Below, piece by piece: positions 1-6,399 of a DNA stretch of 22,276 nt (the first letter of the stretch is position 1; the number at the start of each line of letters is the position of its first letter). The stretch is from a virus: positions 1-22,276 of the IMG/VR virus record IMGVR_UViG_3300037502_004187. The stretch is one strand, 5' to 3'. A program made the translations under genes and the position numbers. The notes below the pieces were generated by a model. That model made no database searches. It was not told the DNA's origin and saw only the letters and a program-made list of their open reading frames with translations.

Positions 1-936
1 ATGACAGGAAATAATAGGAAAATTTCTTTAAAAACAAACGGTAAAACCACATTAAGAATGGCTCTTAAAATATACCAAGATTATGGAACAATTATGCAAT
101 TATCCCCTCACAGTATTAAGCATAGGGAGTATTGCCTTAATATTTTTATTGAAGTTATGGGAGATATGGATTGTAGTAAGGTGAATATAGATACTTATAA
201 TCAATACTTAGTTTTCTTGAATAAAAAATATGAGAATGTAACAACGATACGAACACAATTACAAGTGTTAAAAGCATTTTTAAATTTTTGTTTTGAAAAA
301 GAATATATAAAAAAGTTTAAAATGATGATGCCTAAAGAAGAGGATGTTATTAAAAGAACATATACAGATGTGGATTTAAAGAAATTACTAGAGAAACCAA
401 AAAGAAATAGTTTCAATCAATGGAAGAGTTGGGCTATGGCAAACTTTTTATTAGGTACAGGATGCAGGGTGCGAACAGCTATAAATATGCAAATACAAGA
501 TATAGATTTTGGTAACAATCTAATTACTTTCACTCATACAAAAAATAAAAAGCAACAGATCATACCTTTAAGTAAATCTTTATCTCTAGTGTTAAAAGAA
601 TATCTTTCTTTATGGGAGTATCAACAAGACGATTATCTGTTTCCTAACTACAAGGGCGTACAGATGACAGCAGATGCCTTTAAAAGAAACGTACAGAGGT
701 ATAATAATAGCAGAGGGGTAGATATTACCTCTAGCCATGCTTATAGACATACTTTTGCAAAGAGATGGATTTTGAATGGTGGGGATATTTTTAGATTACA
801 AAAAATCCTAGGACATTCTAATTTGGATATGGTAAAAAAATATGTAAATATATATGGAAATGAATTACAAATAGGATTTGAGAGCTTTAATGCTTTGGAT
901 AGCCTAAAGGGGATAAATAAAATTACCCTCAAATAA
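1..936 (+). CDS. int: Tyrosine recombinase / phage integrase
   Basis: Site-specific recombinase expected to integrate and excise the phage genome. The 311 residues hold an N-terminal SAM-like core-binding domain (about 20-110) and a C-terminal catalytic domain (about 115-300). All usual catalytic residues are visible: Arg156 in TGCRVRT, a Lys in the beta-hairpin TKNKKQQ (181-187), His246-x-x-Arg249 in HAYRH, His272 in LGHSN and the nucleophile Tyr281 in KKYVNIY. No large arm-binding domain precedes the core domain in this window. The start at base 1 may not be the true one: if the molecule is circular, the frame continues upstream without a stop through 22202-22276 and could add 25 or more residues. 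A strong terminator follows. No excisionase was recognised nearby. Confidence 0.95.
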   Translation: MTGNNRKISLKTNGKTTLRMALKIYQDYGTIMQLSPHSIKHREYCLNIFIEVMGDMDCSKVNIDTYNQYLVFLNKKYENVTTIRTQLQVLKAFLNFCFEKEYIKKFKMMMPKEEDVIKRTYTDVDLKKLLEKPKRNSFNQWKSWAMANFLLGTGCRVRTAINMQIQDIDFGNNLITFTHTKNKKQQIIPLSKSLSLVLKEYLSLWEYQQDDYLFPNYKGVQMTADAFKRNVQRYNNSRGVDITSSHAYRHTFAKRWILNGGDIFRLQKILGHSNLDMVKKYVNIYGNELQIGFESFNALDSLKGINKITLK

Positions 937-976
937 GCCCTAGAATCAACTTTAATATCCTAACCTAACAAGTATA

Positions 977-1012
977 CCCCTTTGAGATTAAATGTCTTAG
1001 AGGGGCTTTTTT
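977..1012 (+). terminator. Intrinsic terminator after integrase
   Basis: An 11-bp stem (977-987 with 995-1005, two G-U wobbles) has a 7-nt loop and is followed by C and six T (1007-1012). It lies 40 nt past the integrase stop and should end its transcript. Confidence 0.85.
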
Positions 1013-1199
1013 ACATTTAAAAGACGGTGAACAGTTTACCACTAACAAGCAAAGACGGTAACCAAAACGCACCCTATAGCAATATATAACTATACCCCTA
1101 TAATCAAATATGAGTATACCTCTAATAAAATTTAACCATACCCCTACATAAATTTTGCTAGGTAAGTTCTTTCTTAAATAAAATATAAAATAAAAAAAT
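1013..1199. repeat. Intergenic region with TATACCCCT-type repeats
   Basis: No gene is seen here. The motif TATACCCCTA or a close variant occurs at 1091-1100, 1115-1124 (CCTC for CCCC) and 1137-1146 (first base C), starts 24 and 22 nt apart. A related copy sits at 973-981, partly inside the terminator. A second pair of near-repeats, AAAGACGGTGAAC and AAAGACGGTAACC, lies at about 1019-1064, and the first contains an imperfect palindrome (GGTGAAC/GTTTACC). Spacing near two helical turns suggests a protein-binding array (integrase arm sites or repressor operators), but the role is unknown. Confidence 0.45.
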
Positions 1200-1237
1200 A
1201 AGAGGACATATCTCCTAATTTGTGGAGTTGTCCTCTT
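1200..1237 (-). terminator. Terminator of the repressor gene (possibly bidirectional)
   Basis: A two-part stem: outer AGAGGAC (1201-1207) pairs with GTCCTCT (1230-1236), inner CTCC (1212-1215) pairs with GGAG (1224-1227). Read on the minus strand it follows the repressor stop directly and is followed by a T-rich tract (complement of about 1189-1199). On the plus strand it is followed by TTTTA, so it may stop leftover integrase transcription too. Confidence 0.75.
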
Positions 1238-1441
1238 TTAATTGTCTCTTTCAATAATCAATAATTCATTTGGTGTGCAATCTAAAGCAATACATATTTT
1301 TTCAAGTAAATCAAAACGGATACTTTCAGTTTTGTTATTAGTAAGTTTATGGATTGTGGGATATGTTGTATCACATTCCTTTGCAAGCCAATACATTGTT
1401 TTGTTAGTTTTTTCTAATAGTTGCGATATATTGTTTTTCAT
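1238..1441 (-). CDS. Small XRE/Cro-CI family repressor
   Basis: A 67-residue helix-turn-helix regulator, almost entirely one DNA-binding domain. The HTH spans about residues 14-36 (WLAKECDTTYPTIHKLTNN), followed by the family-typical segment IRFDLLEKICIALDCTPNELL. I chose the ATG at 1441 because a GAGGTG ribosome site lies 9 nt upstream (complement of 1451-1456); a longer frame to 1489 runs into the promoter and lacks a ribosome site. It is the only confident minus-strand gene and is divergent from the early operon, the standard position of a phage repressor. There is no C-terminal peptidase or oligomerisation domain, so it is not a LexA-like self-cleaving CI. It could instead act as Cro, but no second regulator is present. 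Confidence 0.85.
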   Translation of the reverse strand: MKNNISQLLEKTNKTMYWLAKECDTTYPTIHKLTNNKTESIRFDLLEKICIALDCTPNELLIIERDN

Positions 1442-1463
1442 AATTTTAATCACCTCTATAAGT

Positions 1464-1492
1464 AGTATAACATATATATAATTAACCATACA
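1464..1492 (-). promoter_or_regulatory. Candidate repressor promoter
   Basis: Read on the minus strand: TATACT (complement of 1464-1469) preceded by TG one base upstream, an extended -10 element, with a weak -35 region about 17 nt upstream (complement of 1487-1492). The predicted start near 1457 would put the ribosome site (1451-1456) almost at the 5' end of the mRNA. Confidence 0.5.
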
Positions 1493-1506
1493 TATAATTT
1501 TTGTTT

Positions 1507-1526
1507 ATATATTATTGACAATATAT
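1507..1526. promoter_or_regulatory. Candidate operator overlapping the early -35 box
   Basis: A perfect 7-bp inverted repeat, ATATATT (1507-1513) and AATATAT (1520-1526), has a 6-nt centre and overlaps the TTGACA box. Binding here would block the early promoter. AT-richness makes such palindromes easier to find by chance, so this is tentative. Confidence 0.35.
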
Positions 1527-1543
1527 ATTTTTGAGTATACAAT
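1515..1543 (+). promoter_or_regulatory. Early promoter, near-consensus sigma-A type
   Basis: TTGACA (1515-1520), 17-nt spacer, TACAAT (1538-1543). This is the clearest promoter in the window. Initiation near 1550 would give a leader of about 40 nt to the ATG at 1591. It faces away from the repressor gene and would drive the replication and early genes. Confidence 0.8.
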
Positions 1544-1590
1544 ATGATTATTCGATAACCACACAAAGGAAAAGAAAAGAGGTGAAAACA

Positions 1591-2139
1591 ATGCAAGGTA
1601 TCTATATTCCTATCCATATCCTACAAGACAACAATCTAAACCTACAAGAGAAAATAATTCTAGCAATCACATCCACTATGGACAAAGGGCTTTACATGAG
1701 CAACCAAGCAATAGGCGATTTGCTAGGTTTAAGCAAAGGTAGAGTATCTCAAATCATTACTTCTTTAGCGAAAAAGGGTTATGTTAAAGTTGTGCTTGAA
1801 TACTACCAAAATAGTAAACAAGTAAAGAAACGTACTGTATTCCTTGCTAAAGTAGCCCAAACCGTTAAAGAGGTTATATCCACAATCAAAAAGGCAGCAT
1901 CTAATGTGGCATCTAAAGCCAAAGAAATAAGGCAACAATATACCTACACTAAGCAAAAAGTAGGAACAGAGCAAGTGGAGCAAGTTACCTTTGCAGAGGG
2001 TTCTTATAGGGCTACTAAGGGTAAAGTAAACAAGTTTAACTTGGGTGCTACCCACGATTGGAACTTTGACGAATTGGAACGCTTAGAGCGTGAATATGTA
2101 CAACGCATAATAGAAGGATTTTCAAGCGTTCCCCGATAA
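1591..2139 (+). CDS. Winged-helix replication-type protein (replisome-organiser-like)
   Basis: A 182-residue protein, first gene after the early promoter. Residues 1-65 form a helix-turn-helix of the replication initiator/DnaD-like type: a start like MQGIYIPIHIL, then LNLQEKIILAI, then the HTH (SNQAIGDLLGLSKGRVSQII) and a wing. The middle (about 85-135) is Lys/Ala-rich, probably helical linker. The C-terminus (FNLGATHDWNFDELERLE) resembles the short acidic tail found on many Firmicutes phage and plasmid replication-type HTH proteins. The ATG at 1591 is preferred because AGAGGTG lies 6-12 nt upstream; the longer frame from 1531 starts inside the -10 promoter element. Likely role: origin binding or loading of host replication proteins; it could alternatively be a transcription regulator. 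Confidence 0.6.
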   Translation: MQGIYIPIHILQDNNLNLQEKIILAITSTMDKGLYMSNQAIGDLLGLSKGRVSQIITSLAKKGYVKVVLEYYQNSKQVKKRTVFLAKVAQTVKEVISTIKKAASNVASKAKEIRQQYTYTKQKVGTEQVEQVTFAEGSYRATKGKVNKFNLGATHDWNFDELERLEREYVQRIIEGFSSVPR

Positions 2140-2398
2140 GAAAACGACGTTCTAGTATTTTAGTTCGTATAATATATAACTCATAAGTACAACAACTAAA
2201 CAAACTATCTAACACGCTCATATACCCACTAAATATCACTTCTAAGGCGTTTATGGGTATTGCATAGGTTTGTGTAAGGTAATATGTAATGTGTTTGTAT
2301 AAACAAAACTCAAGCCCATAACAGACCTGAGTTGGATTGTGCAATGTTTATATAAGTGTTTGTATGGTGTAAAATTTGTGATTCTAGGAGAAAGAAAT
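2140..2398. other. Non-coding stretch with palindromes after the first early gene
   Basis: No supported gene on either strand. An 11-bp inverted repeat with one bulge (2222-2233 with 2250-2260) has a 16-nt loop. A 5-bp palindrome TGTTT/AAACA lies at 2292-2305 and a 6-bp one AACTCA/TGAGTT at 2307-2333. None has a T-run, so they are not clear terminators. They could be part of a replication origin or of a structured leader of the repeat array that follows. Confidence 0.35.
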
Positions 2399-2796
2399 AG
2401 GATTGGGGGAAAAATGGTTCTTAAAAATGGGTTTTCAAACTATAGCTTATGAGAGGATATAATAAGAAGTGAGTTTTAGGAAAAACGTCTGTCAAAAAAG
2501 CTTATTTTTTATACTATTAAGTGTAGGGGCGAAAAATGGTTCTTAAAAGAGCTTATTTTTTATACTATTAAGTGTAGGGATATAATAAACAAATATATAA
2601 AAAAAAGTGATTTTTAGGAAAAACGTTTGTTAAAAAAGGGTTTTCAAACTATAGATTATGAGGGGATATAATAAGAAGTGAGTTTAGGACAAAAATGTCT
2701 GTCAAAAGAGCTTATTTTTTATACTATTAAGTGTAGGACAAAAATGGTTCTTAAAAGACGATATAAACAACTATAACTATGAGAGGGTATGAATAT
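2399..2796 (+). repeat. Mosaic micro-ORF repeat array, left block (six units)
   Basis: Six related units. Their initiation triplets are at 2414 (ATG), 2485 (ACG), 2536 (ATG), 2623 (ACG), 2695 (ATG) and 2744 (ATG). Each is preceded by AGGA, AGGGG or GGGGG, then an A-run, and followed by GTTCTT, TCTGTC or TTTGTT plus AAAA. Tails are swapped among units: a 'GGTTTTCAAACTATAG' type, a 'GCTTATTTTTTATACTATTA' type and a 'ATATAAACAACTATAAC' type. Each frame closes after 10-12 codons, giving peptides such as MVLKRAYFLYY or MVLKNGFSNYSL. A 34-bp segment is identical at 2545-2578 and 2704-2737, and differs by one base at 2494-2527. Four copies contain TATAAT. Function unknown. Confidence 0.8.
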
Positions 2797-2851
2797 TAAA
2801 AAGTTTATAGCGATTGGTTTAAACCAAACGTTAAAAATAAATCTAAAATAA
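2789..2851 (+). CDS. Candidate 20-residue leader peptide
   Basis: ATG at 2789 follows GAGAGGG by one or two bases and opens a 20-codon frame (MNIKKFIAIGLN...) ending TAA at 2849-2851, 15 nt before the next real ATG. The same GAGAGGGTATGAAT start recurs at 3436 and 3610. The ribosome-site spacing is too short for efficient initiation, so translation is doubtful; it may instead be part of the repeat. Confidence 0.25.
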   Translation: MNIKKFIAIGLNQTLKINLK

Positions 2852-2866
2852 TAGGAGGAATTACAA

Positions 2867-3331
2867 ATGGCAACAGAAGAACAAATGAAAAAAGATATGG
2901 TACAAATTACTATCTTAGCAGATTTAAACGAGGTTATGGAAAATACAAACCTAACACAGGATTTAAAAATCCATTACATTAATTGGATTACATTTTTAGT
3001 GGGTAATAGCTGGGAAGCATGGCAAGAAATTAAACAAAATTATTTAGCTTCTAACTCTATTATAAGTGCAATACAGGGTTACAGAAGTAAACTAAAGAAT
3101 AATGAAAATTGGCAAGTAGATACATATGAAATAATCGACACTTACATAGACGGCGATTATGAGTATCTAACACATTTATTTAGTGGATATACAAGAGAGC
3201 CTTTAAGTGTATATACGGTTACAAGAGCAATGTTATATATGGAAAACAAAGGTATGAGCATCGAAGATTTAATGAAAAAAATGGATAAAGAAGTAGCGAG
3301 AGATAGACGATTATTAAGTTTTGTCCAATAG
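2867..3331 (+). CDS. Unknown early protein, 154 residues
   Basis: Not recognised. It has an excellent ribosome site (TAGGAGGA ending 8 nt before ATG) and normal coding character. The protein looks all-helical and soluble, with no signal peptide, membrane segment or cysteine motif. Visible parts are an acidic N-terminal helix (1-30), a Trp-rich middle (ITFLVGNSWEAWQEIKQNY) and a charged C-terminus (MSIEDLMKKMDKEVARDRR). It is bracketed by the two blocks of the micro-ORF array, including an 88-bp perfect repeat on each side, so it is effectively a cassette that recombination could delete. Its early position and flanking regulation suggest a host-takeover, replication or immunity role, but nothing in the sequence decides this. 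Confidence 0.75.
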   Translation: MATEEQMKKDMVQITILADLNEVMENTNLTQDLKIHYINWITFLVGNSWEAWQEIKQNYLASNSIISAIQGYRSKLKNNENWQVDTYEIIDTYIDGDYEYLTHLFSGYTREPLSVYTVTRAMLYMENKGMSIEDLMKKMDKEVARDRRLLSFVQ

Positions 3332-3360
3332 AGTTTTATAGGTTCTCCAATTTTATCGAT

Positions 3361-3616
3361 TCTAGGAGTAAAAAATGATTTCTTGCAAAAATGGTTCTTA
3401 AAAAAGGACGTTCAGATTATATTAGATGAGAGGGTATGAATATTAAGGGGTATCCTATATGGATGCCTCTTTCATTGCACAAAAAGGACAAAAATGGTTC
3501 TTAAAAATGGGTTTTCAAACTATAGCTTATGAGAGGATATAATAAGAAGTGAGTTTTAGGAAAAACGTCTGTCAAAAGACCATATAAACAACTATAACTA
3601 TGAGAGGGTATGAATA
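3361..3616 (+). repeat. Mosaic micro-ORF repeat array, right block (three units)
   Basis: Three further units with initiation triplets at 3391 (ATG), 3494 (ATG) and 3565 (ACG). Bases 3490-3577 are identical to 2410-2497 (88 bp), and 3582-3616 are identical to 2761-2795 (35 bp). The first unit has a new tail, giving MVLKKGRSDYIR. The block starts with GATTCTAGGAG, also found before the left block (near 2380). Apart from this array the 3332-3650 stretch has no gene. Confidence 0.8.
3447..3472 (+). terminator. Weak terminator/attenuator hairpin inside a micro-ORF
   Basis: A 9-bp stem (3447-3455 with 3461-3469, two G-U pairs), 5-nt loop, then only three T. It lies within the 22-codon frame 3436-3504 (MNIKGYPIWMPL...), the arrangement expected of a translation-coupled attenuator. 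The T-run is short, so termination may be partial. Confidence 0.4.
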
Positions 3617-3650
3617 AAATACATAAAAACACAAGAGGAGGAAATAGAAG

Positions 3651-3830
3651 ATGGTAGAAGAAAAAATTACAATAGTAAATATGAAACAAATAGCTTGCTA
3701 TATGCTAGATGGGGTATATCCAGCAGAAGTAAAACTTGATGAAAGTACAGGTAAGATTATATTTATATTTTACAAAAATGAAACAAAAGAAGTATGGCAG
3801 AAATGGAAAGAAAAAAGGTTTAATGTTTAG
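3651..3830 (+). CDS. Small DUF5659-like protein, 59 residues
   Basis: A strong ribosome site (GAGGAGGAAA at 3634-3643) precedes ATG 3651. The protein has the shape of the DUF5659 family of small Firmicutes phage/plasmid proteins: a helix with IACYMLDG, a beta-hairpin (AEVKLDESTGKIIFIFYKN) and a helical basic tail (VWQKWKEKR). Function of that family is unknown to me. It follows the right block of the micro-ORF array, just as the 154-residue gene follows the left block, so both may share control. Compare the protein at 5090-5323, which has a similar layout. Confidence 0.7.
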   Translation: MVEEKITIVNMKQIACYMLDGVYPAEVKLDESTGKIIFIFYKNETKEVWQKWKEKRFNV

Positions 3831-3984
3831 GTATGGATTTTTGTTACCTAAATTGAAAAATAGGTATGGATTTTTGTTACCTAAATTAAAAAACAGGTAA
3901 CAAAAATACCTCTCAAATGTTAGTGTATAAAGTAATAAATATAAAGAAATAAAAAGAAATTTACTAGGTTTTTTCAAACCTAGG
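3828..3984. repeat. Iteron-like repeats and hairpins before the candidate rep gene
   Basis: Two tandem 33-bp copies (3828-3860 and 3861-3893) differ at one base; each contains AGGTA...TACCT as a small palindrome. A third, partial copy is inverted: 3895-3906 is the exact reverse complement of 3871-3882, giving a 12-bp stem with a 12-nt loop. Further on, CTAGGTTT (3964-3971) and AAACCTAG (3976-3983) form an 8-bp hairpin with a 4-nt loop. Direct plus inverted repeats immediately upstream of a DNA-binding protein gene resemble an iteron origin or an autoregulatory operator. Confidence 0.6.
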
Positions 3985-4021
3985 ATAAAATTAAAAGTTA
4001 AAATATGAAAGGTTGATAAAA

Positions 4022-4882
4022 ATGGAAAATTTTAATGATAATGTGTATACAGATTTTTTTGGAATGATAGGAAATAAATTTATTATGGATGACGGTATTG
4101 ATAATATTAATGTAAGTGTTTTTACGGTTGTAAGAACTTTATTTTTCGATTGGAATAGACATTTAAGTATCTTAAATTTACACACACTATATGAAGTTTT
4201 AGGAGTAAATAAAAATCAAACAAAAGCAACTAATAATATAAAAGATGCTTTACAATGGTTAGTTAATAATAGCTATATTGAAATTAATGATTTTTTAATG
4301 AGGGAAACATTTAAAGATGTAAAAAAAATAAATACAAGTAGTATGCTTAAAATTAAATTCTTACAATCAAGTGAGTTTTTAGCTAAAAATGGTGGATTTG
4401 CAAAGGTACCAGATGAAAACTTAATGAGGATACTGAATAGCGTAGGATATAGGGATAAATACAAGATTATCCGATATTATACATTAATAGCTAGGGTATG
4501 CTCTAATAGTGGTAACTGGGGTTCTTTGAGCCAAAATAGAGCGAAAGAAATATGTGGTATAAGTGCTAATACGTGTATTGAATATAATAAAATATTACAG
4601 GATTTAGGTGTAATTTTCTATAATAATAATTATGGACGAGTAAATTTTAAAGGGGAATTTAAAATGACAGGAACAATGTTTGGACATTGCAATGTATATT
4701 ACATGGGTGATACTTTATGCAAAGAAAGTTTCGATGGATTTGTAAAAAATCACGCTAAAGAAAAAGGATACAATTTAATAAATAAGGAAAAATTGTATAA
4801 ACAAGATGTACAAGAAGAAGAAATTACTCTTACAGAAGAGGAAAGATTATTAGTAGAGTTAGATGAATTATGTATGAATTAA
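4022..4882 (+). CDS. Two-HTH DNA-binding protein, candidate replication initiator
   Basis: A 286-residue protein with two apparent helix-turn-helix regions: residues about 35-95 (RTLFFDWNRHL...LYEVLGVNKNQTKATNNIKDALQWLVNNSYIEI, shown in part) and about 135-205 (MRILNSVGYRDKYKIIRYY, then LSQNRAKEICGISANTCIEY and LQDLGVIFYNN). The C-terminus (about 255-286) is acidic, rich in Glu. Two winged-helix-like domains are typical of plasmid-type initiators, but I cannot assign a Rep family. The ATG at 4022 has AAAGG 9 nt upstream; a TTG at 4013 would leave no spacing. Iteron-like repeats lie directly upstream and a terminator directly downstream, so it is its own small unit. It could instead be a transcription regulator. 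Confidence 0.5.
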   Translation: MENFNDNVYTDFFGMIGNKFIMDDGIDNINVSVFTVVRTLFFDWNRHLSILNLHTLYEVLGVNKNQTKATNNIKDALQWLVNNSYIEINDFLMRETFKDVKKINTSSMLKIKFLQSSEFLAKNGGFAKVPDENLMRILNSVGYRDKYKIIRYYTLIARVCSNSGNWGSLSQNRAKEICGISANTCIEYNKILQDLGVIFYNNNYGRVNFKGEFKMTGTMFGHCNVYYMGDTLCKESFDGFVKNHAKEKGYNLINKEKLYKQDVQEEEITLTEEERLLVELDELCMN

Positions 4883-4894
4883 TAAATAGAACAG

Positions 4895-4918
4895 GGGCGA
4901 TAAATGTCGCTCTTTTTT
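4895..4918 (+). terminator. Short intrinsic terminator
   Basis: GGGCGA (4895-4900) pairs with TCGCTC (4907-4912, one G-U) around a 6-nt loop, followed by six T (4913-4918). Confidence 0.65.
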
Positions 4919-4944
4919 AATTTAAAAAAACAGGAGGAAAACAA

Positions 4945-5103
4945 ATGGATAATATTATTAAACAATGGGAAGCTTTAATAGAACACAATAATAAACTTGC
5001 ACAGCTTGCAGAAGAGGAAAATTTAATTAATCTAAGAATCTTGGAGAAATTAGAAGAAATTGAAGAAATAATTTATAGGGGGTTATGCAATGGAAGAAAA
5101 TAG
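4945..5103 (+). CDS. Small coiled-coil protein, 52 residues
   Basis: ATG 4945 has a strong AGGAGG (4932-4937) at 7 nt. The product is mostly one charged helix (KLAQLAEEENLINLRILEKL then EEIEEII), probably a coiled coil. It overlaps the next gene by 14 nt in another frame, which suggests translational coupling. Family not recognised; small proteins like this are common in early phage operons. Confidence 0.65.
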   Translation: MDNIIKQWEALIEHNNKLAQLAEEENLINLRILEKLEEIEEIIYRGLCNGRK

Positions 5104-5323
5104 AGATATTTTTATCTATAGTTTAAATAAGATTGCCTATTTACAAAGTAGAGGTATATTTGTAGAAATTAGACAAGAAGTTGAAACAGGAAAGTTTTTT
5201 GGTATATTTAAGAGTACACCAGAGAGTAGGCAAGTAATAGCAGAATATAAGGCAGATAAAGGCTTGCATAGCTTCTTAAATCAATTTAAAGCGATTAAGC
5301 AAGCAATAGCAGAACATAGATAA
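5090..5323 (+). CDS. DUF5659-like protein, 77 residues
   Basis: ATG 5090 follows a GGGGG-rich ribosome site (about 5079-5083) and overlaps the preceding frame. The N-terminal half (IYSLNKIAYLQSRGIFVEIR, then TGKFFGIFKSTPE) matches the helix/beta-hairpin layout of DUF5659-like proteins; the C-terminal half is helical (KGLHSFLNQFKAIKQAIAEH). It is similar in layout to the 59-residue protein at 3651-3830 and may be a distant paralogue. Function unknown. Confidence 0.75.
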   Translation: MEENRDIFIYSLNKIAYLQSRGIFVEIRQEVETGKFFGIFKSTPESRQVIAEYKADKGLHSFLNQFKAIKQAIAEHR

Positions 5324-5326
5324 ACA

Positions 5327-5361
5327 AGGCATCTTTTAGGAATATAAAGGGTGTCTTTTTT
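5327..5361 (+). terminator. Short terminator before the nuclease gene
   Basis: AGGCATC (5327-5333) pairs with GGTGTCT (5350-5356, two G-U pairs) around a 16-nt loop and is followed by T to 5361. Weak but correctly placed between two genes. Confidence 0.5.
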
Positions 5362-5388
5362 AATGCAAAAAATAGGAGGATTTACAAT

Positions 5389-5904
5389 ATGAGTTTATTT
5401 AATACACAAAGCAAAATAGGGGATATTGGAGAACAAAAGTTTTTAAGCTATATGGAGAGTAAAGGATTTGTGGTAGTGGATGTAAGTAAGCATAAATGGA
5501 TTGGAATAGATAATTGTGTGGATTTTATATTAAGTAAGGACAACAAGGTAAGTACATGGGAAGTAAAAACAGATACTAAAATGCACATTACAGAAAATAT
5601 ATTTGTGGAGAAATATAGCAATTTAGATAAGGAAGAAGAAGGATGGTTTACTAAAACTAAGGCAGATTATATTTGCTATGTAGATGCAGAGAATAGCAAG
5701 GGATATATTTTTGAAATTAGAGCATTAAAGGATTTTATTAAAGCTTATCCAATGTGTAGACAAGCTAATTGTGTAGATTGGTTTTATTATGGAAATAAAA
5801 GTACAAAGATAATTCGACGTGGATATTTGGTAAATATAGACGCTTTTAAGAGTTTTTGTAAAAGGGAATATAAGAATACTATGTTGTTAGAAAAGACATT
5901 GTAA
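5389..5904 (+). CDS. PD-(D/E)XK-type nuclease
   Basis: A 171-residue protein with the core of the PD-(D/E)XK phosphodiesterase fold: Glu15 in GDIGEQKFL on the first helix, Asp45 in CVDFIL on a beta strand, and Glu58-Val-Lys60 in WEVKTD on the next strand. Single-domain phage members are often Holliday-junction or recombination nucleases, or act in DNA processing before packaging. It sits directly before the terminase genes. The ribosome site AGGAGG lies 9 nt before the ATG. The substrate cannot be told from sequence; a restriction-like role is less likely since no methyltransferase is nearby. Confidence 0.75.
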   Translation: MSLFNTQSKIGDIGEQKFLSYMESKGFVVVDVSKHKWIGIDNCVDFILSKDNKVSTWEVKTDTKMHITENIFVEKYSNLDKEEEGWFTKTKADYICYVDAENSKGYIFEIRALKDFIKAYPMCRQANCVDWFYYGNKSTKIIRRGYLVNIDAFKSFCKREYKNTMLLEKTL

Positions 5905-5928
5905 AGGTGTCGTGACGGCTTTAAAGAG

Positions 5929-5966
5929 GGTGAAAATAGGGGTACTGTATTTCACCGTAGCCCTAC
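5929..5966 (+). other. Hairpin, possible pseudoknot, before terS
   Basis: GGTGAAAATA (5929-5938) pairs with TATTTCACC (5948-5956) with one bulged A. Loop bases GGG (5939-5941) can also pair with CCC (5961-5963) downstream of the stem, an H-type pseudoknot. No T-run follows. It could control terS translation or act as a packaging or processing site. Confidence 0.4.
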
Positions 5967-5997
5967 AATATAAAAATGAAAAGGATGTGATATATAT

Positions 5998-6399
5998 ATG
6001 CCTAAATTAAGAGGTAAAGACGGTAAATATAAGCCTATTACAGGTTTAAGTAATGTACAAAGCAAGGCTATTTATATGTTAGTTTATGAGGATTATAAAT
6101 ACAATAAAGATGTATATGAGGAATTAGGTGTACCAAAGAGTACTTATTACCATTGGTTTACACAGGATTTATTTACAGAAGAGTTAAAGAAGGCGAGAGA
6201 CGCTCTGTTTAAAGAGATGAGTAATAAAGCCTTAAAAAAACTAGGACAAACATTGGATAGTGGAGATGCGAGAAGTGTATTGAAGGCGTGTGAAATGATT
6301 TTAAAGGAAAATGGACACTTAAACGATAAGATAGACATTACAGAAAATACCAATAAATCTATAACAATTTCTATTGTTAATGAACAGGAAGAAGAGTAG
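5998..6399 (+). CDS. terS: Terminase small subunit (phBC6A51-type HTH)
   Basis: A 133-residue protein. Residues about 15-65 form an HTH (QSKAIYMLV... DVYEELGVPKSTYYHWFTQD) like that of the phBC6A51-type terminase small subunits, followed by a helical oligomerisation region (KKARDALFKEMSNKALKKL, then DARSVLKACEMILKENG) and an acidic tail (QEEE) likely contacting TerL. It should bind the packaging site and recruit the large subunit. The ribosome site is AAAAGGATG, about 10 nt before ATG 5998. Its separation from terL by 591 bases is unusual, since the two genes normally overlap or touch. Confidence 0.85.
   Translation: MPKLRGKDGKYKPITGLSNVQSKAIYMLVYEDYKYNKDVYEELGVPKSTYYHWFTQDLFTEELKKARDALFKEMSNKALKKLGQTLDSGDARSVLKACEMILKENGHLNDKIDITENTNKSITISIVNEQEEE

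Follow-up and report, generated by a model that had tools for sequence, protein, structure and literature searches.

Two early genes of this prophage are each preceded by an array of short mosaic repeat units built on a common 19-base core, nine units in all, and recombination within the core appears to have shaped both arrays. Our preferred reading, held at a probability of roughly 0.4, is that the arrays are non-coding, cis-acting, recombination-amplified leaders of the two genes, in which the core would be a multicopy binding site. An earlier note on this DNA had described the units as ribosome sites with micro-ORFs and had offered, as its third explanation, a DNA element that looks coding only by accident; given that neither a frame nor a ribosome-site constraint was found, that option fits best, and the ribosome-site and micro-ORF look of the array is probably accidental.

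The window analysed here is the complete 22,276-base record of a viral collection, and its first base opens the ATG of a tyrosine integrase. It also encodes a Cro/C1-type repressor (1238-1441), terminase, SPP1-type portal, tape measure, holin and amidase. A Bacillota host is likely for the prophage because the terminase is nearest to those of staphylococcal, lactobacillar and enterococcal phages (about 47-49% identity) and the amidase resembles Clostridioides and Paraclostridium proteins (42-43% identity). Behind the integrase gene, at 970-1146, lie four AASTATACCCCT-like 12-mers, three of them spaced 22-24 bases apart, which are candidate arm-type sites of the integrase. PADLOC found nothing.

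Just upstream of the first array, a plus-strand gene (1591-2139) encodes a winged-helix protein like phage replication initiators, a candidate ligand of the units. The early gene behind this array (2867-3331, plus strand) encodes a 154-aa protein for which no relatives were found, predicted to be all-helical by a single-sequence model (pLDDT 74), and a structural search with the predicted fold gave no match. The early gene behind the second array (3651-3830, plus strand) encodes a 59-aa protein assigned to PHROG 31036, of unknown function, and is unrelated to the first in length and sequence. Before a gene for a 286-aa protein, two near-identical 33-base copies of TAGGTATGGATTTTTGTTACCTAAATTRAAAAA are followed by an inverted third (CAGGTAACAAAAATACCT) at 3828-3907; they may form a second, operator-like repeat set, different from the array units. 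Further along, a 171-aa protein (5389-5904) shows weak similarity to the nuclease-like YraN family.

The 19-base core AAAAAYGKYTSTYAAAARA occurs in nine copies between 2410 and 3579, against an expectation of 0.16 for the window as a whole. At a tolerance of up to two mismatches, the window contains 10 matches against 0.16 expected in shuffles, a contrast that describes the likeness of the units and is not an independent test, as the pattern was built from the units themselves; the tenth match is a weak one, with two mismatches, within the integrase gene. The other nine are the units of the earlier note, with the cores it gave and in the position it gave, before the 154-aa and 59-aa genes. Their ATG or ACG triplets start at 2414, 2485, 2536, 2623, 2695, 2744, 3391, 3494 and 3565. 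Aligned on these triplets, the nine units have several positions in common: the AAAAA ahead of the YG, the G itself, a T at both +6 and +8, and AAAA from +10 to +13. The bases 3' of the core differ by tail type. A 17-19-base core, AAAAAYGKYTSTYAAAA(R), is thus kept in every unit, with four tail types behind it.

The location before the two genes holds; the repeats, however, fall into two arrays and the first starts about 20 bases before position 2399, where the earlier note had begun it. Array 1 (2380-2800) places six units before the 154-aa gene and array 2 (3358-3620) three before the 59-aa gene, all on the plus strand. Both carry GATTCTAGGAG at the left border, a direct repeat also seen in the alignment (2380-2390 and 3358-3368), and both end on tail T3. 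In array 1, U1 (2410-2470) joins an ATG head and GTTCTT core to tail T1, U2 (2471-2520) joins the head TTTTAGGAAAAACG and a TCTGTC core to T2, and U3 (2521-2610) joins an ATG head and GTTCTT core to T2 and then a T1-like end (GGGATATAATAA). U4 (2611-2680) has an ACG head, TTTGTT core and T1, U5 (2681-2730) the head AGGACAAAAATG, TCTGTC core and T2, and U6 (2731-2795) the same AGGACAAAAATG head with a GTTCTT core and T3. In array 2, U7 (3387-3442) has a GTTCTT core and tail T4 and lacks AGGA, U8 (3486-3550) is a copy of U1 with the same ATG head, core and tail, and U9 (3551-3616) joins the U2 head to the U6 tail T3 at the core AAAA. Core-to-core spacing is 71, 51, 87, 72 and 49 bases in array 1, and 103 and 71 in array 2.

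Several other features surround the units. Between array 1 and the 154-aa gene lies an operator-like palindrome centred on TTGGTTTAAACCAA (2804-2837), an inverted repeat that also forms a stem in the RNA fold. Between U7 and U8, the RNA fold gives a hairpin of terminator-like shape, AGGGGTATCC...GGATGCCTCTTT (3446-3475, plus strand), which is absent from the terminator scan. On the minus strand, a terminator-like hairpin with a T-run (2307-2333) would face any leftward transcription from array 1, and no evident minus-strand gene is found there.

The mosaic character of the units is pronounced. GTTCTT cores are paired with T1, T2, T3 and T4, TCTGTC cores with T2 and T3, and the TTTGTT core with T1, which bears out the four tail types and the shuffling of heads and tails described earlier. 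Since all four pairings of GTTCTT and TCTGTC with T2 and T3 are present, a simple tree would need recombination or repeated change. Moreover, 2410-2497 recurs without a mismatch (88 of 88 bases) at 3490-3577, and of the 39 bases that follow, 38 match the U6 tail. The whole of 3490-3616 can therefore be written as 2410-2497 followed directly by 2757-2795, with agreement at 126 of 127 bases and the join at the AAAA common to all cores. This stretch of array 2 is array 1 without everything between the U2 core and the U6 core, units 2-6 being collapsed into one. As a collapsed array 1 joined at the shared AAAA, it is direct sequence evidence of recent recombination in the core, by which units were copied between leaders and collapsed; together with the shuffled pairs, it lends strong support to the proposal of cassettes exchanged by recombination. 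Either direction of copying, from array 1 to array 2 or the reverse, agrees with the comparison, and the nine units are not independent of each other. As the genes behind the arrays are unrelated, the leader moved without its gene.

It is very improbable that the units are translated leader micro-ORFs or decoy ribosome sites regulating the genes behind the arrays. Frames of 10-12 codons do run from the ATG or ACG of all nine units, as had been reported, but the frame one base later is exactly 15 codons long in six of the nine and is as uniform as the proposed one; the uniform length follows from the sharing of tails. Within same-tail copies all four codon differences change the residue and none is synonymous, and between heads 12 of 14 are non-synonymous and two synonymous; about 21% of random changes in the unit codons would be synonymous and the changes are few, which makes the codon test weak alone. 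The peptides show no sign of being under selection, though the counts are low. Against a generic 16S rRNA 3' end, the mean pairing energy is -5.6 kcal/mol for the units (range -2.5 to -10.1), somewhat better than for random ATGs (-3.6) but much weaker than for the phage genes (-9.6). Every unit had been credited with AGGA or a G-run; AGGA is present in six of nine, U1 has GGGGG and U3 has AGGGGCG, but U7 lacks any ribosome-site-like sequence by its ATG. The AGGA of the units is only about 4 bases from the ATG, compared with mostly 5-9 in the genes. Three units do start with ACG (2485, 2623 and 3565), a further point against translation, but the view that each was switched off by a single base change does not hold up well: all three lie in one head type, TTTTAGGAAAAACG, and are therefore most simply one copied head variant and not three separate inactivations. 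With no synonymous bias, no special frame and weak, inconstant ribosome sites, leader peptides find no support, and the same weakness and inconstancy speak against decoys. Any action of the array is more likely that of a repeated binding or control site. A 25-codon GTG frame spanning U2 and U3 (2469-2546) reads MSFRKNVCQKSLFFILLSVGAKNGS, like a short signal or pheromone-type peptide, by chance or in reality.

At the RNA level, no common fold was found across the units, the consensus fold being without pairs, and Rfam gave no match in 1000-6000; the whole leaders fold slightly better than shuffles (z -2.1 for array 1 and -1.9 for array 2). Some units hold promoter-like pairs, and a simpler promoter role is possible. 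Stacked early transcription from tandem weak promoters, each unit with its own -35/-10 pair (CTGTCA or TTCTTA, 17-18 bases, then TACTAT, TATATT or TATAAC; or, in T1, TTCAAA, 18 bases, TATAAT), is nevertheless unlikely. Best scores reach at least 8.3 in six units, compared with 90th and 95th centiles of 7.9 and 8.7 for random 77-mers of the window, but the best pair falls in different registers in T1 and T2, the T3 unit nearest each gene scores lowest (2.8 and 6.2), and the region 900-6000 has no excess of promoter-like sites over shuffles (27 vs 29.3). On the reverse strand of the array, TTGACA was seen by eye in U2 and U5, without a -10 box at the right distance. Replication iterons are evenly spaced, helically phased direct repeats bound by the initiator whose gene lies beside them, and the units could in principle serve as such for the initiator-like winged-helix protein, whose gene adjoins array 1; GC skew is also steadily positive from about 2200 on, a turn that would suit an origin, or a switch in gene direction, close to that gene and does not place an origin in the array. 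An origin here is quite unlikely, as the spacing is irregular, with helical phasing that stays under the 95% limit for randomly placed sites, the arrays are two with a gene between them, DnaA-box-like sites are not above chance, and the AT content of the array does not clearly exceed that of the flanking DNA.

The main rival of the binding-site reading is passive repeat growth, in which a recombination-prone leftover expands and collapses by unequal crossover and has no function of its own beyond spacing the genes. We consider this doubtful, yet a serious contender. It is favoured by the recent copying and collapse at the shared core, by the irregular spacing, by the lack of constraint on fold, frame or ribosome site, and by the failure to find a homologous array at the search sensitivities applied. 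Exact and degenerate core patterns gave nothing or chance matches in IMG/VR contigs, a two-unit pattern gave only chance matches in GTDB species genomes (Methanosarcina and a cyanobacterial simple repeat), and blastn of the array found none in INPHARED phages or PLSDB plasmids. In eighty terminase relatives, taken with flanks of up to 8 kb, neither the array nor a relative of the 154-, 59- or 286-aa proteins was found. No relatives were found of the 154-aa protein in IMG/VR contigs and plasmids, of the 286-aa protein in phages and IMG/VR contigs, or of the 59-aa protein in phages. The searched collections may omit records very near the window, and the absence of array relatives is not proof of uniqueness. 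The single L010 pattern site lies inside other sequence and is a chance match, and six single sites of the tail pattern in IMG/VR contigs, mostly large ones, were likewise read as chance. Against passive growth, the core letters are constant while the tails differ widely, the array is found in two early leaders only and has been retained in a small (22 kb) phage, and both copies of the array keep the same border and terminal tail. With no homologous arrays found, the constancy of the core could reflect selection or recent duplication alike.

The binding-site reading is preferred because the cores are concentrated in two leaders, several core positions are invariant and the leaders share a border and T3; because core and tail types are shuffled and the leaders move separately from their genes; because neither a frame constraint nor a shared RNA fold or Rfam match is present; and because the winged-helix gene lies directly upstream and an operator-like palindrome stands between array 1 and its gene. 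Against it, core spacing is irregular and not significantly helix-phased, the core is not a clear palindrome, and the promoter-like pairs in some units would allow a simpler promoter role. Judged from its sequence, the array probably serves as a multicopy binding site. Crossovers in the core account for the shuffling, copying and collapse of units across the two leaders, and the core would be recognised in multiple copies by a DNA-binding protein, possibly a host factor or the winged-helix protein (1591-2139). Occupancy of the core, governed by unit number (six before the 154-aa gene and three before the 59-aa gene), could then tune early transcription, and the short frames would be a by-product of AT-rich sequence. 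A more speculative version, to which we give a small chance, is a modular control element specific to the phage: how many interchangeable core/tail units precede each early gene, and in what order, would be an expression setting that recombination can adjust and that is copied between genes independently of their proteins.

If the units are functional, they would offer a clear snapshot of a control element spreading between the genes of one phage by short-core recombination, with a bearing on the rewiring of early genes in temperate phages. If passive, they illustrate how AT-rich repeats can by chance produce persuasive strings of ribosome sites and micro-ORFs.

Among known systems, the start-associated sequences (SAS/ESAS) of Cluster K mycobacteriophages are similar in being short AGGA-type repeats that precede various genes within the non-structural region of the phage genome (PMC3203893). 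SAS typically lie 3-7 bases before a start codon and about half have inverted repeats upstream (PMC3203893), whereas in the array several units are stacked and none acts at the start codon of the gene behind; the gene starts, at 2867 and 3651, have AGGAGG sites of their own and lie about 70 bases (154-aa gene) and 35 bases (59-aa gene) past the last unit. The iterons of phage replication origins, as bound by lambda-type O proteins (PMC7466680), are comparable in having a repeated core near an initiator-like winged-helix gene, but the array has long, mosaic units split over two gene leaders and the irregular spacing given above, neither even nor phased. Bacterial interspersed mosaic elements (BIMEs) and neisserial intergenic mosaic elements (NIMEs) likewise combine small sequence modules in the spaces between genes; BIMEs have palindromic building units and hundreds of chromosomal copies (PMC3049150). 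The array has no palindromic unit. The BOX elements of Streptococcus pneumoniae have boxA and boxC as fixed ends flanking boxB, form strong RNA stem-loops and are dispersed over the chromosome (PMC3049150), whereas the array has no shared fold and occupies only two loci, in a prophage. Stem-loop modules were sought in the array through the consensus fold, the leader z-scores and Rfam, with the results given above. The BOX and SAS comparisons thus rest on analogy, the one defining feature tested for each being absent here. Even so, BOX elements are also composite intergenic repeats with interchangeable modules and variable copy number, situated near genes whose expression they possibly affect, and some of their copies, too, hold accidental open frames (PMC3049150).
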